A program made the position numbers and the translations under genes. A model generated the notes under the pieces. That model did not search any database, had not been told where the DNA came from, and worked only from the letters and a program-made list of their open reading frames with translations. Below, in pieces: positions 48,558-62,996 of a stretch of DNA of 64,000 bases. The stretch is from Gracilimonas sp. (GTDB lineage Bacteria > Bacteroidota > Rhodothermia > Balneolales > Balneolaceae), in the NCBI RefSeq assembly GCF_017641085.1, contig NZ_JAEPPI010000003.1:124001-188000 (forward strand), given 5' to 3'. The first letter of the stretch is position 1. Each line of letters starts with the position of its first letter.

Positions 48558-48713
48558 TCAGGAAATAGCCAGTCCTAATGCCAGTGCAGAGATGATCAAA
48601 ACGTAATAGAAACGTTTCACATTTTTATCCGGCTTATGAAGGCCAAAAATGTTCTTAAAGATGTAGTGGTCAAATCCTAACTTGTAATATTTTTCATATA
48701 ACTTAGCTCTCAT
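48558..48713 (-). CDS. Small membrane protein of 51 residues, unknown function
   Basis: On the complement, ATG at 48711-48713 is preceded by the strong ribosome site GAGGAGGTGC (48719-48728) and opens a 51-residue frame ending TGA at 48558-48560. It starts MRAKLYEKYYKLGF, is basic and aromatic in its first 35 residues (FKNIFGLHKPDKNVKRFYY) and ends in one hydrophobic helix VLIISALALGLAIS. It lies 40 bp downstream of the Pho-box-controlled gene on the same strand, so it may share its transcript. Confidence 0.65.
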   Translation of the reverse strand: MRAKLYEKYYKLGFDHYIFKNIFGLHKPDKNVKRFYYVLIISALALGLAIS

Positions 48714-48753
48714 AATAGCACCTCCTCATTTTTTTGGTGCGGTTTATTTTTAT

Positions 48754-49155
48754 TTAATTTTCTTCCAGATCAGCAAGTCTCTTTTCAAGCTGGTCTATTT
48801 GTTGTTCAATTTGTTTGATAGCAAGCTGCTGTTTATCAGCCTTTACTACTTTACCGTCAATCACGGTTTCGACAGAAATTCGCTCTCCCTTATCAAATGT
48901 AGAGGTTGTGACGATATCTCCGTCTATAGAGGAATACAGTGCCCACTTACCGTGGGGCTTAAATAAGTCTCCTTCTTTCCAATACTGCCCTTCCTGAACA
49001 ACGGCTCCCTCAGCATTATAAAATTTGACGCTGAAAATGTTGTCTTCAATATGTGCCAACACTCGCTCGTGTTTCTCATTGGTAACGTTCTGCTGGGCAA
49101 ACAAACCAGTAGAAAAAACGGCAATAAACAGTATGGGTAAAAATTTTGTCTTCAT
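48754..49155 (-). CDS. Secreted 133-residue protein behind a Pho-box-like array
   Basis: Signal peptide MKTKFLPILFIAVFSTGLFA, then a small beta-rich region with KFYNAEGAVVQEGQYW, FKPHGKWALYSSIDGDIVTTSTFDKGERI that resembles MORN/YwqK-type repeats, and a coiled coil (IKQIEQQIDQLEKRLADLEE) at the C-terminus. I do not recognise a named family. The upstream array of six TTAAC elements at an 11-bp period predicts phosphate-starvation control. SD GAGGAA lies 6 nt before the ATG. The 51-residue gene downstream may be cotranscribed. Confidence 0.75.
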   Translation of the reverse strand: MKTKFLPILFIAVFSTGLFAQQNVTNEKHERVLAHIEDNIFSVKFYNAEGAVVQEGQYWKEGDLFKPHGKWALYSSIDGDIVTTSTFDKGERISVETVIDGKVVKADKQQLAIKQIEQQIDQLEKRLADLEEN

Positions 49156-49184
49156 AGATTTCCTCTTGTTGTGTCTACCCCAAT

Positions 49185-49244
49185 GTTAAGGAATTGTTAA
49201 CTTAAAGTAAATGGCATGTTAACGAAAAGTTAACATTAAGTTAA
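49185..49244 (-). promoter_or_regulatory. Six-copy, 11-bp-period TTAAC array (Pho-box-like)
   Basis: On the plus strand GTTAA begins at 49185, 49196, 49218, 49229 and 49240, and GTAAA at 49207: six elements in exact 11-bp steps. Read toward the gene at 49155 these are TTAAC-N6-TTAAC direct repeats. PhoB/PhoP regulators bind direct repeats with 11-bp spacing (B. subtilis TT(A/T/C)ACA boxes), so this is the right geometry. The nearest repeat ends 29 bp before the start codon. Confidence 0.75.
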
Positions 49245-49252
49245 CACAGGGC

Positions 49253-50107
49253 TCAGAGGAACTGTGAGAGGCGTTTTTCTATGCTTTCAATTTGCAGGGA
49301 AAGCTGATAGGAGTCATAAGCGGTGTAGGGTGTCTCCCTGTCCATTTGTATAGACTTCAAAAACATGAGGGCTGTTTTCTCGGCTGATTTCGCAGGATCA
49401 AAGCCCTGTTTTTCAAAAAAGAGGTGGTTTCCTGAATTGAGCCTGCCGATACGAATATTCTGAGAGGGAACATTGCATTCCAGGATCTCTTGTTTGGTGG
49501 AAGCAATGCGTTTGTGAGTGTTTTCGGCCGCCCCGGTGTAAATTCTGATATCGGCTGTTGAGCCATTATCAAACCGAAGGAAAATGTGAATGGTTACAGG
49601 ATGTTTGCCTTCGAGATTGATGGCTTTGGCTTCTGCATGATGGATACCGCTGTCTATCCATTTCATGCACAATCCGAGTTCGTCGATCCAAAAATGGCGA
49701 AATTCTTCACCGGTGCCAAGGAATTGAGTATGGTTGACCTCACGGGTGATGCTTAGAAAAACCGGCCGGGACATACGGTCCATCATCCATTGAGTGGCGG
49801 GGGCGAGAGTTGGCCAATGGGAAAACTGTACGTGGACGCCTGCTTCTTTGGTAGCCCGATAGATTTTCTCCAGCTTTTGGGTGTTGGTGGGCTGACGGGA
49901 AATGAGAAAACAGTTCAACCCCAACTGAATGCCTTCGAGGAGTATATCAAGGTTCTGTTCCGTCTCATCTATTAAAAGACAGGCATCAACAGTGCCAACT
50001 TCCCTGATACTCGGGCAAAGCTCTACTTCCTGAACAATGCGGTGAGGGCGTAAATGCTGCTCCCAGGCTACTGCCCGTTTTGCATCTCCTACAATTCCAA
50101 CTTTCAT
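49253..50107 (-). CDS. Gfo/Idh/MocA-like oxidoreductase fold, degenerate
   Basis: 284 residues from the ATG at 50105-50107 (the open frame runs two codons further to a TTG). KVGIVGDAKRAVAWEQHLRP and the beta-alpha rhythm to VELCPSIREVGTVDACLLID suggest a Rossmann fold of the Gfo/Idh/MocA type; LNCFLISRQPTNTQKLEKIY stands where the family has its EKP motif, so the lysine is lost. HFWIDELGLCMKWID occupies the catalytic-helix region. Probably non-canonical or non-catalytic; I cannot name a role. It lies directly upstream of the Pho-like array on the same strand. Confidence 0.55.
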   Translation of the reverse strand: MKVGIVGDAKRAVAWEQHLRPHRIVQEVELCPSIREVGTVDACLLIDETEQNLDILLEGIQLGLNCFLISRQPTNTQKLEKIYRATKEAGVHVQFSHWPTLAPATQWMMDRMSRPVFLSITREVNHTQFLGTGEEFRHFWIDELGLCMKWIDSGIHHAEAKAINLEGKHPVTIHIFLRFDNGSTADIRIYTGAAENTHKRIASTKQEILECNVPSQNIRIGRLNSGNHLFFEKQGFDPAKSAEKTALMFLKSIQMDRETPYTAYDSYQLSLQIESIEKRLSQFL

Positions 50108-50216
50108 AAGCAATTTGATCCCGTTTAGTTGGGTCTCAAGATGCTAATGAGGAGGGAATTTTACAACAATGCGGAATTTGGGGTGTGTAATAAGTTAATC
50201 TCTGATGAATAGATGT

Positions 50217-50541: not shown

Positions 50542-52362
50542 CTATCCTTCGTTACGTTCTGCCTCTGATTTTTTAACGGGTGGAGGTGGGGGAGTCGAAA
50601 ACTCTGAGTCCTCCAATTTAAAATTAATGGATAGCGCATATTGTACCCGAACCGGGCGATCTTTTTGATAGCCGGGCGTAAACCGGGCTTGTTTTATTAC
50701 TTCAAGCGCCTGTTCATCACAACCTCCACCAATGCCCCGAACAACCTTGGCATTCTCTACATTACCTTGTTCATTTACGATAAATTGCACTGTAACTCTG
50801 CCTTCAATTCCCGCTTTACGGGCCATTTCAGGATATTCTACTTTAGACATTAACGCAGCCATACCGCCTTTCAGCTTGGGCATCTCTTCCACAACTACGA
50901 AGTAATCGCCAAGATCTTCTTGATCACCAGCAGTAGGAACTGACGGAGGTGGAGGTGGAATTTTGGCGTTTACATTTTCAGATGTCCAAAACAGAGGGGG
51001 ATATTTTTTAAACTGTTCTGATATTTTACTGTTATGCGATACCCAAATAGGGGCATTAGAGATTCCCTTCAGGATTTCAGCAGATGAATTTAATACTACA
51101 CTAAGCTCACTTATTTTAAAGCTAAGTGTATTGCCTTCAATTTTACCAGCTTGAATTCCACCGTCAAAATTCTGGGGTGCAATTTTAAAAGCTCCGTATT
51201 CGGATGCTACAATACTAATCGCTCCGAGCCCTCCGACTGAAATATCCCTTAGATTTCTATAATCTAATGAGACTCCGTTTATAGAGAGGGTTGCATCATT
51301 AATATTAATTTTGGCATTCTCAAGTTCCTCGAGTGAAGCCATTTCCGGCCCTCTTAAATCAGAACAGGCAATAGGCAGGGTAATCCCCAATATCATCAGG
51401 AATAAAAAGAAGATGCTTTGCCTGAACGATGCTTTATGTAATTTGTGATATTTCATGGTCTTAATACGTTTTTTGAGTGTTGAATTTTTGACTGCCATAC
51501 TCACCGAGAGTTTTCCAACACCGGTGCTGAGTGGCACTAATTCATACAAGAGATTGGCATAAGACTTAATGGAGAAATCGGATTTGGAAAGTACCTCCTG
51601 ATCGCAACTGATTTCGCGATAGGTGTCGATCTCTTGGTTGCCGTATCGGATTAACGGGTGAAACCAAAACAGAGATTCGATCATGGACAATGCCAGCTGC
51701 AGCAAATAATCACCCCGCTTAATGTGGATGAGCTCATGCTGCAGGGCCATGTCCAGTTTTTCCGGTTCATGTTGCAGAATTTTTGGAAGGACAATCACCG
51801 GTTGCTTCCATCCAAATGTGAATGGAACCAACGGATGATCATGAAAAGCCAATTTCACCGGTTTGTTATTGGGCCGGTCAATTTCATGCGGGATTTCCTG
51901 CAATTCCGTAATGCTTAAGTTTTTGTATAAAGATTTCAGTGCCGCATAACTACTGATGAGTCTTCCGATCATAAAAATGGAGATCAGGCAAATTATTATG
52001 GTGGCTGCTCCTATAAAAAAAGAGGGTTCCTGCCATTGGATAGCAGATAGTTCCGCAGAAGAAGGATTAGCACCGGGTACTATCTCAATAGGATTTTGAA
52101 CTACAAAAAAAGCGGTCTCCAGGTTGGATGAAGCAAACCATTCCGGCACTTTACTCATGATGGCCGCAACTGCTATGCCCAGCGGCAGGGAAAGGATGGC
52201 TGCTGTTCTCAGATGATAATGAAACAACGGATTCAGTTTTTCACGCGTTTTCAGAAACAGAAAAGCCAGGGCACAGCAAATAGTCCAAATCATGATGGGA
52301 AACCAAAAGGTATCCAGGCTTACATTACCAATTACTTTGATCAGTTCGGTGAGTTCATACAT
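50542..52362 (-). CDS. M56/BlaR1-type membrane peptidase fused to a TonB C-terminal domain
   Basis: 606 residues. Membrane helices near 14-34, 46-63, 110-130 frame a cytoplasmic gluzincin domain with zinc motif HELIH (in DMALQHELIHIKRGDYLLQL), a further helix near 310-330, then a periplasmic region (about 340-450) and a TonB_C fold at 515-595 (VEYPEMARKAGIEGRVTVQFIV, VVRGIGGGCDEQALEV). M56 peptidases sense ligands and release BlaI-type repressors by proteolysis; the TonB_C part replaces the penicillin-sensing domain of BlaR1. It starts 1 nt after the repressor gene stop. Confidence 0.88.
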   Translation of the reverse strand: MYELTELIKVIGNVSLDTFWFPIMIWTICCALAFLFLKTREKLNPLFHYHLRTAAILSLPLGIAVAAIMSKVPEWFASSNLETAFFVVQNPIEIVPGANPSSAELSAIQWQEPSFFIGAATIIICLISIFMIGRLISSYAALKSLYKNLSITELQEIPHEIDRPNNKPVKLAFHDHPLVPFTFGWKQPVIVLPKILQHEPEKLDMALQHELIHIKRGDYLLQLALSMIESLFWFHPLIRYGNQEIDTYREISCDQEVLSKSDFSIKSYANLLYELVPLSTGVGKLSVSMAVKNSTLKKRIKTMKYHKLHKASFRQSIFFLFLMILGITLPIACSDLRGPEMASLEELENAKININDATLSINGVSLDYRNLRDISVGGLGAISIVASEYGAFKIAPQNFDGGIQAGKIEGNTLSFKISELSVVLNSSAEILKGISNAPIWVSHNSKISEQFKKYPPLFWTSENVNAKIPPPPPSVPTAGDQEDLGDYFVVVEEMPKLKGGMAALMSKVEYPEMARKAGIEGRVTVQFIVNEQGNVENAKVVRGIGGGCDEQALEVIKQARFTPGYQKDRPVRVQYALSINFKLEDSEFSTPPPPPVKKSEAERNEG

Positions 52363-52363
52363 G

Positions 52364-52744
52364 TTACTTGTCCTCCATGTTGTCTATCATGTCGCGGAGT
52401 TCCTTCAGTTCCTCCTCGCTGAGGTTTTCTCTCTTCACCAGCGTTTGCACCAGGGCAGAGGTTGATCCCTTAAATACTTTATCAATCATGCCGGATACCA
52501 GGCTCGACTGCACCTCTTCCGGCTTTTTACGGGCGCTGTATACATAGGTCACGCCGTCTTTACGATACTTTAAATATCCTTTGTCGTTTAAATTCTTCAT
52601 GATGGTCATGACGGTGGTATAAGCCACTTTACGTTCCTTCAGGATTTCTTCCTGCACCTGAGCAACGGTAGCTTCCCCCATTTCCCACACGTGGTGCAGG
52701 ATTTCCATTTCCGATTCTCCAAGGGGTGTCAATGATTTTCTCAT
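52364..52744 (-). CDS. BlaI/MecI/CopY-family transcriptional repressor
   Basis: 126 residues with the winged-helix core MEILHHVWEMGEATVAQVQEEI and the dimerising tail SEEELKELRDMIDNME. The family represses its own operon until its M56 partner cleaves it; the partner gene follows with a 1-nt gap. A dyad AATACTA/TAGTATT upstream (52766-52785) is a good operator candidate. Confidence 0.92.
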   Translation of the reverse strand: MRKSLTPLGESEMEILHHVWEMGEATVAQVQEEILKERKVAYTTVMTIMKNLNDKGYLKYRKDGVTYVYSARKKPEEVQSSLVSGMIDKVFKGSTSALVQTLVKRENLSEEELKELRDMIDNMEDK

Positions 52745-62291: not shown

Positions 62292-62996
62292 TTACCCGTT
62301 TCGAAGCATATATCCAACACCGTGTAAAGTAATTAGGTAACGTGGATCGTCGGGGTGAACTTCAATTTTGGCTCTCAGCTTTGAAATGTGAACGTCCACC
62401 GTTCGGGTATTTGTGCTAAACTCATAGCGCCATACTTTTTCCAGCAGTTCATCTCGCGATACCGGTTCGTTAGCACTTTTCAGCAGATAGCGGATCAGTT
62501 CGACTTCCCGGGAAGTCAATTCAATTTCCTGTCCATCCGGGCGGTGAACAACAGACTCATGAAGGTCAATTTTTATAGGACCCAATTGCAAGATGTCCAC
62601 TTCGCCGGAAGTGGAATACGTGCCGGCGCGTCGTAACCGGGCTTCAATGCGGGCAAGGAGTTCCTTCACCCCAAACGGTTTGGTGAGGTAGTCGTCGGCG
62701 CCAAGATTCAGCCCTTTAACTTTATCCGGCTCCTGATCTTTGGCTGTAAGCATGATAACGGGGAAAGTAAATTTGTTATCCCGGATTTCCTCCAGAATAT
62801 CATAGCCACTTTTACCGGGAAGCATGATGTCCAGAATCATGATATCCGGCTTATGCTCTTTTACCATTTCCACGGCTTGCGTACCCTCTTCACTTACTAA
62901 AACATCGTACCCTTCACTTTCCAATGTATCCCGAAGTGTAAAAACAAGGCTTGGCTCGTCTTCCACAACGAGCACTTTCATGCGTTTATCCGACAT
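62292..62996 (-). CDS. OmpR/PhoB-family response regulator
   Basis: 234 residues. Receiver with EDE pocket, phospho-acceptor Asp in IMILDIMLPGKSG and LTAKD, K in DDYLTKPFGVKELLARI; winged-helix DNA-binding domain with ELTSREVELIRYLL, TRTVDVHISKLRAKIE and the wing YLITLHGVGYMLR. It overlaps the kinase gene by 11 nt. This class includes PhoB, and it is the only such regulator near the Pho-like array at 49185, but that link is not shown by sequence. Confidence 0.94.
   Translation of the reverse strand: MSDKRMKVLVVEDEPSLVFTLRDTLESEGYDVLVSEEGTQAVEMVKEHKPDIMILDIMLPGKSGYDILEEIRDNKFTFPVIMLTAKDQEPDKVKGLNLGADDYLTKPFGVKELLARIEARLRRAGTYSTSGEVDILQLGPIKIDLHESVVHRPDGQEIELTSREVELIRYLLKSANEPVSRDELLEKVWRYEFSTNTRTVDVHISKLRAKIEVHPDDPRYLITLHGVGYMLRNG

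Follow-up and report, generated by a model that had tools for sequence, protein, structure and literature searches.

Six phased boxes resembling a Pho operator precede two conserved genes of no known role in Gracilimonas (Balneolaceae)

Results

Genes and features of the locus

We analysed a 64,000-nt stretch of Gracilimonas sp. DNA (hereafter the window), which belongs to a genome of 3.49 Mb (G000) and was compared within the Gracilimonas group of the Balneolaceae (the genus; ten genomes including this one) and across 92 genomes of the family. The array described here lies between the end of a 286-aa gene and a 133-aa gene, which is followed by a 51-aa gene, all on one strand. The features of the locus are as follows.

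49253-50113, minus strand: 286-aa gene without a Pfam match
49184..49244, minus strand: predicted six-box operator phased at 11 bp, one strong copy per genome in ten of ten genus genomes
49181..49188, minus strand: candidate -7 promoter element TAACATTG; it overlaps box 6 and differs from the consensus TAnnTTTG at one position
48754..49155, minus strand: 133-aa protein with an apparent signal peptide and a predicted beta-meander and C-terminal helix, without a Pfam family
48718..48740, minus strand: 5-bp hairpin, GCACC...GGAGGTGC, over the ribosome-binding site of the 51-aa gene, sole copy in the window
48558..48713, minus strand: 51-aa protein with one membrane segment predicted from sequence (residues 32-50), second gene of the presumed operon

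The 133-aa protein, which appears to carry a signal peptide, had no match over cut-off in Pfam (best E 0.024) or NCBIfam (best E 0.0036; 17.6 bits, cut-off 90) and no clear sequence match in the PDB. Its predicted model (pLDDT 82), a seven-stranded meander with a C-terminal helix, has the look of a single-sheet domain such as MORN or OspA/TarM, but no match was significant, and a fold search against the PDB gave none at E 0.001 or better. In the VIA comparison, in which Z values under 8 are common, SdgB was best (Z 7.5, rmsd 3.4, 75 aligned), and SET7/9 (Z 6.3, rmsd 3.5, 74 aligned) was the only MORN protein recognised among the 50 matches listed. For the 51-aa protein, a search for phage matches found none. 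The arms of the hairpin before its gene are identical in the genus orthologues printed in full and its fold z-score is weak (-1.5); translational control of the 51-aa gene by this hairpin is possible. Further out, past the upstream neighbours of the array, the minus strand encodes a BlaI-type repressor and a fusion of an M56 peptidase with a TonB C-terminal domain (50542-52744).

Sequence, phase and significance of the array

Read on the minus strand, the array is TTAACT TAATG TTAACT TTTCG TTAACA TGCCA TTTACT TTAAG TTAACA ATTCC TTAACA, then TTGGGGTAGACACAACAAGAGGAAATCT and the ATG at 49155; from 49244 down to 49184 its boxes are thus TTAACT, TTAACT, TTAACA, TTTACT, TTAACA and TTAACA, and the last starts 34 bp upstream of the ATG of the 133-aa gene. 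An earlier sequence-only reading had placed the elements at 49185, 49196, 49207, 49218, 49229 and 49240, and both these coordinates and the exact 11-bp steps are correct. It had also spoken of six TTAAC boxes; six boxes there are, and on the minus strand, where the genes lie, five are TTAAC and box 4 is TTTAC.

The array is far beyond chance. TTAAC-N6-TTAAC occurs five times in the window, every time within the array, against 0.10 expected, and no six-box stretch with at least 24 of 30 matching letters arose in 50 shuffles of the window. The six-box weight-matrix score of the array, from a matrix that includes the array itself, is 55.2, compared with a best of -6.2 in 20 shuffles. Conservation across the ten genus genomes supports the significance of the array independently. 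A search of Rfam found nothing at the locus.

A/T-rich DNA phased near the helical repeat could be intrinsically bent or act as an UP-element, raising the output of a strong constitutive promoter with no specific regulator involved, and the -7-like element overlapping the last box would suit such an arrangement. The conserved letters, however, are TTAAC and not A-tracts: across 54 orthologous boxes, the T at position 3 and the A at position 5 are invariant and the C is kept in 52, while the spacers vary. The same word also recurs before phosphate genes, as described below, and we consider an effect of DNA shape or an UP-element highly improbable. Box 4 is TTTAC in all nine aligned genus orthologues, and the G002 array has weaker boxes 1 and 3 (GTAAC and GTAAT) but intact boxes 4 to 6.

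Conservation in the genus and family

The 133-aa protein was matched in nine of the ten genus genomes (our own counted), each time with the array before its gene. The exception is G006, which lacks the 133-aa gene and has the array before the 51-aa gene instead. R1, a sequence-only model built from the array, found one strong array per genome throughout the genus (E 7e-10 or better). Across the family, scanned with stricter filters that lose weak matches, R1 matched at E 0.01 or better in 28 of 92 genomes. One locus was read in each of the 18 matching genomes outside the genus, and 13 of these are homologues of the array locus, with the array ahead of one or both of the 133-aa and 51-aa genes; the remaining five (L082, L084, L086, L087 and L088) lie off-site, with the pair in L087 near a homologue of a 375-aa transporter candidate described below. 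The sequence-only reading had named the 133-aa gene as the target and the 51-aa gene as perhaps one. The former stands, and the latter was understated; the 51-aa gene has at least an equal claim to be the target, as four genomes carry the array before it without an intervening 133-aa gene.

We also read 24 loci with weak R1 matches, of which ten fall within an open reading frame and have the appearance of chance matches, three are ppk1 promoters (L104, L112 and L054), and nine showed no interpretable pattern. In the other two (L107 in G005:C11 and L065 in G006:C4), phased TTAAC boxes, scoring 14.5 in both, are flanked on one side by a small gene (87 aa) of winged-helix-like type and on the other by a divergent gene that resembles a sensor kinase, the gene names being our own reading of the frames.

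Recurrence of the boxes before phosphate genes

The sequence-only reading had proposed a genome scan for the exact repeat TTAAC-N6-TTAAC, which showed no enrichment: seven forward and six reverse pairs were present genome-wide, compared with eight and six in the reversed control, and eight other exact-pair loci lay at no obvious phosphate genes. The exact word alone would therefore have revealed no regulon, and it was dropped as a search tool in favour of a profile. At one exact pair (L010:242-1399; own genome C1:321 kb), about 100 bp separate the boxes from the gene of a 385-aa, apparently exported protein without a Pfam match at E 0.01, which might be a Pho-type porin.

The profile was a six-position weight matrix made from the 54 array boxes only, and pst loci were chosen by protein family and not by box. 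PhoU, Na/Pi cotransporter, PHO4 and PstC were not found above cut-off in our own genome; therefore, relatives were used for the pst comparison. PstC passed the cut-off in two of ten genus genomes; across the family it did so in 28 of 92, while 29 of the 92 have a match at E 1e-40 or better. The pst set comprised 28 stretches from 27 of the 29 genomes, including L157 (G006) and L158 (G002), with G071 and G074 left out. PstS was found by BLASTP in 24 stretches and not identified in four; its identity was only 24-29% in five loci (G016, G066, G067 and both of G069). Among side observations on the distribution of pst, all 12 genomes of genus g3 have pst and no array match, and 22 of the 28 genomes of genus g11 lack both an R1 match and a PstC match at E 1e-40.

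The pst operon of G006 shows the canonical gene order and canonical sequences (pstS, pstC, pstA, pstB and phoU, frames read). Directly before pstS and on the same strand stand six boxes, TTAACATCTCT CTAACATAGAG GTAAAACAAAT TTAACATTAAA ATAACAGAAGG GTAAAG, which together outscore every other six-box site within 14 kb (21.5, compared with a best of -3.5 in 60 shuffles). Six boxes also precede pstS in G030 (17.9 versus a best of -0.5 in 30 shuffles), and four were found in G037 before pstS (26.6 versus -4.7 in shuffles) and in G072, where PstS was not identified (27.4 versus 2.5). Six tandem copies had been taken as unusually long in the earlier reading; with six boxes before pstS in G006 and G030, the number is not unique.

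Over the whole set, the best 11-bp pair upstream of pstS had a median score of 14.3 (n = 24), compared with 2.8 for 112 control genes from the same stretches. A pair score of at least 8 was reached by 19 of the 24 pstS loci versus 25 of the 112 controls at period 11, and by at most 10 of the 24 at periods 7 to 10 and 12 to 16; 16 of the 24 exceeded the 95th percentile of the controls. The Mann-Whitney p for pstS versus controls, 1.7e-9, is too good because 12 of the 24 loci come from one genus and the comparison is not phylogenetically independent. A pair of score 8 before PstS was not found in G002, whose pst is divergent, in G016, G020 and G065, or at the second pst locus of G069. The divergent pst-like operon of G002 (L158; G002:C13) lies near an Rrf2-like regulator gene by our own reading, with no Pho-type box before its PstS.

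Polyphosphate kinase (ppk1, by Pfam) provided a second phosphate gene. In the eight genus genomes read (all but G007 and G008), a pair stands 62 to 71 bp upstream of the start used: TTAACG CTAAG TTTACA in six genomes, TTAACA CTAAG TTAACA in G005, and the weaker TTAACG CTAAG TTTATA in G001. The score was 12.3 or more in seven of the eight loci, compared with a 95th percentile of 6.5 and a maximum of 11.0 in 41 window controls; these sites were first found through the R1 model search itself. Na/Pi cotransporters were not found above cut-off in our own genome and G003, and of the six such genes scored in the genus, three reach 9 and the others 2.1 or less.

A third candidate target is a membrane protein with the boxes in every genus genome.

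L094:1480-2607 (own genome C3:830 kb): 375-aa membrane protein (alignment A3), transporter candidate, found in ten of ten genus genomes

The upstream pair of its gene is conserved (score 10.5 to 15.6 in ten of ten, compared with the same 41 window controls), and a TACCCTTGG-like element follows 15 bp on from where the last box starts. Four genomes of genus g19 were read (L077, L078, L080 and L085), and in them the array is followed on the same strand by a homologue of the 133-aa gene and then by the transporter candidate. The protein has two internal P-V/M-S-T-T copies, PVSTT and PMSTT, one per half, which resemble the PVSTTH of E. coli PitA, and weak matches to the PiT family (PF01384; E 0.1 to 1) were seen in three orthologues. 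In contrast, none of the ten genomes holds a candidate over the family cut-off, and a profile comparison with PitA aligns only 29 columns with a probability of 1.7%; homology to PitA is unproven. A homologue of the candidate had no Pfam match at E 0.01, searches for a PDB sequence match and a plasmid match found none, and its structure model was set aside (pLDDT 36). With these motifs and the Pho-type pairs upstream, the 375-aa protein is a candidate phosphate transporter for genomes in which Pst, Na/Pi and PHO4 proteins were not found above cut-off.

The sequence-only reading had staked its Pho-box proposal in part on recurrence of the array at phosphate genes, and the boxes do recur, before pstS, ppk1 and the transporter candidate. 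Pho boxes are direct repeats of 11-nt period with about seven conserved and four less conserved nucleotides, and within a lineage they are shared by pst and further phosphate genes; the array and its boxes agree with this description.

Candidate regulator

Five OmpR-family regulators are over cut-off in our own genome. One, at C2:454 kb, is the top of the five against the PhoB model TIGR02154 (234 bits; curated cut-off 296) and by identity to E. coli PhoB (40%), and it keeps a PhoB-like helix, DRTVDVHVRKIR (E. coli: DRTVDVHIRRLR). It is followed by a PnpS/PhoR-like kinase, whose best NCBIfam match is PnpS (275 bits; cut-off 400). Another kinase scores slightly above this one against E. coli PhoR, and the kinase assignment is ambiguous. 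The regulator within the window (62292-62996) best matches YycF. Upstream of the phoB-like gene itself, the best pair scores 8.3 and that of another regulator gene reaches 8.1; autoregulation is not convincing.

Direct repeats of 11 bp are general for the OmpR family, and the array could belong to one of the four other regulators, which would bind head-to-tail in the same mode and answer a different signal. The number of family members in the genome leaves room for this, a strong array that is single-copy in each genus genome would suit a dedicated regulator, and the PhoB candidate is below its curated cut-off. Against it, the same boxes stand before pstS in several genera and before ppk1, and the C2 regulator with its DRTVDVHVRKIR helix is the closest of the five to PhoB. 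We therefore consider another regulator unlikely, and the C2 protein is the best candidate for a PhoB-type regulator of the array.

Promoter and direction of control

The last box continues into TAACATTGG; the opening eight letters of this sequence are one off TAnnTTTG, described as the -7 consensus of Bacteroidetes (PMC7366714). The element TAACATTG is present in nine of nine genus orthologues and in six of the ten family arrays printed. A sigma70-type promoter (box 5 TTAACA as -35, 17 bp, TAGACA as -10) was rejected; TAGACA is not kept in L026, L027 and L030, whereas TAACATTGG is kept.

PhoB-type regulators can repress as well as activate. With box 6 overlapping the candidate -7 element, a bound regulator might hold the operon off in starvation and leave it on at high phosphate. 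However, boxes 1 to 5 all sit on the upstream side of the -7 element, in the position of an activator, and the promoter of the transporter candidate has 15 bp between the start of its last box and the -7-like element. Moreover, box 6 reads GTAACATT in six of the ten family arrays printed, in which the letters of the -7 element are kept rather than those of the box. We consider repression decidedly unlikely. These letters suggest that box 6 may be kept more for the polymerase than for the regulator, which would leave boxes 1 to 5 at the activator position.

Absence of the 133-aa gene and presence of Pst

In 23 genomes the array is at this locus, and four of them, from four genera, have no 133-aa gene there (G006, G030, G034 and G091; absence is genome-wide for G006 and at the locus for the other three). 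These four are exactly the ones with a canonical pst operon, compared with none of the 19 that have the 133-aa gene. Their PstS proteins are 67 to 100% identical to that of G006, and each has an upstream pair of 13.8 or more; G002, which has the 133-aa gene, carries the divergent pst type without a box. Fisher's p for 133-aa absence versus canonical pst, uncorrected for kinship, is 1.1e-4 in the 23 genomes and 2.6e-4 among the 19 that are at least 90% complete, or 1.3e-3 in the latter if G002 is counted as pst. In a tree of the two flanking genes (19 of the 23 genomes), deep branches are weak (supports 22 to 35), and the four losses may represent two to four events.

PstC at E 1e-40 or better was present in five of the 23 array-locus genomes (the four above and G002), compared with 24 of the 69 others. 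Thus, presence of the array does not exclude pst, and only absence of the 133-aa gene tracks it. This pattern suggests, without demonstrating it, a role for the 133-aa protein that becomes dispensable where Pst is present, and it hints at Pst-independent phosphate uptake.

Discussion

Our results point to a Pho-type operator. Published Pho boxes are 11-nt direct repeats, and those of E. coli PhoB and B. subtilis PhoP are head-to-tail repeats bound by an OmpR-family phosphate regulator (PMC4415409), as we propose here; the E. coli core described in the same source is CTGTCAT, whereas the array has TTAAC. The array also differs from these boxes in its six copies, in standing before genes without a known role, and in belonging to a genome without Pst and PhoU above cut-off. 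The PhoP word of B. subtilis is TT(A/T/C)ACA, which fits TTAACA and nearly TTTACT. In Synechocystis, the PhoB core is TTAA in three tandem direct repeats, and mutating any of the three is described as reducing or abolishing binding (PMC11126600). The likeness to this cyanobacterial (SphR) box lies in the tandem repeats and the core word; the phylum, targets and number of boxes differ. Closer by relationship, PhoBR is present in the wider group: the Pho response of F. johnsoniae is described as including a polyphosphate-kinase-like gene (PMC8115612), and a phoB deletion in B. fragilis as leaving only a trace of pstC expression (PMC3547664). In the accessible parts of these two accounts, we found neither a box sequence nor the 133-aa and 51-aa genes. 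Literature searches, with most subscription papers outside their reach, found nothing joining "Pho box" and Balneolaceae, and none of the matches listed for PhoB binding or the Pho regulon together with Balneolota or Rhodothermota treated both subjects. The 11-nt Pho-box repeats and the tandem TTAA core are known, and the proposed operator would be a new case of such a switch, before genes without a known role.

We propose, with a probability of roughly 85%, that the array is a PhoB-type Pho operator that switches the 133-aa/51-aa operon under phosphate scarcity. When phosphate is scarce, a PhoB-type response regulator would become phosphorylated, the best candidate being the OmpR-family protein that adjoins the PnpS/PhoR-like kinase on contig C2. 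The phosphorylated regulator would bind the 11-bp TTAACA repeats head-to-tail. Occupied repeats just upstream of and overlapping the -7 element would then turn on the 133-aa and 51-aa genes, which we infer to form one transcript. The same boxes would control pst where it is present, ppk1 and the PiT-like transporter candidate. By this reasoning the two conserved proteins are likely parts of the phosphate-starvation response, and the 133-aa protein is probably an envelope protein that aids phosphate acquisition.

A further reading would make the 133-aa and 51-aa proteins and the PiT-like transporter a new uptake or sensing module that replaces Pst in Balneolaceae without PstSCAB-PhoU, that is, a PhoB regulon without Pst; we regard this as tentative and rather doubtful.

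The proposed operator provides a concrete Pho-box word for Balneolaceae, TTAACA in 11-bp repeats, and would tie two conserved proteins without known function, as well as a candidate transporter, to phosphate. Phosphate sensing and uptake in bacteria without recognisable Pst and PhoU thereby become testable with named genes.
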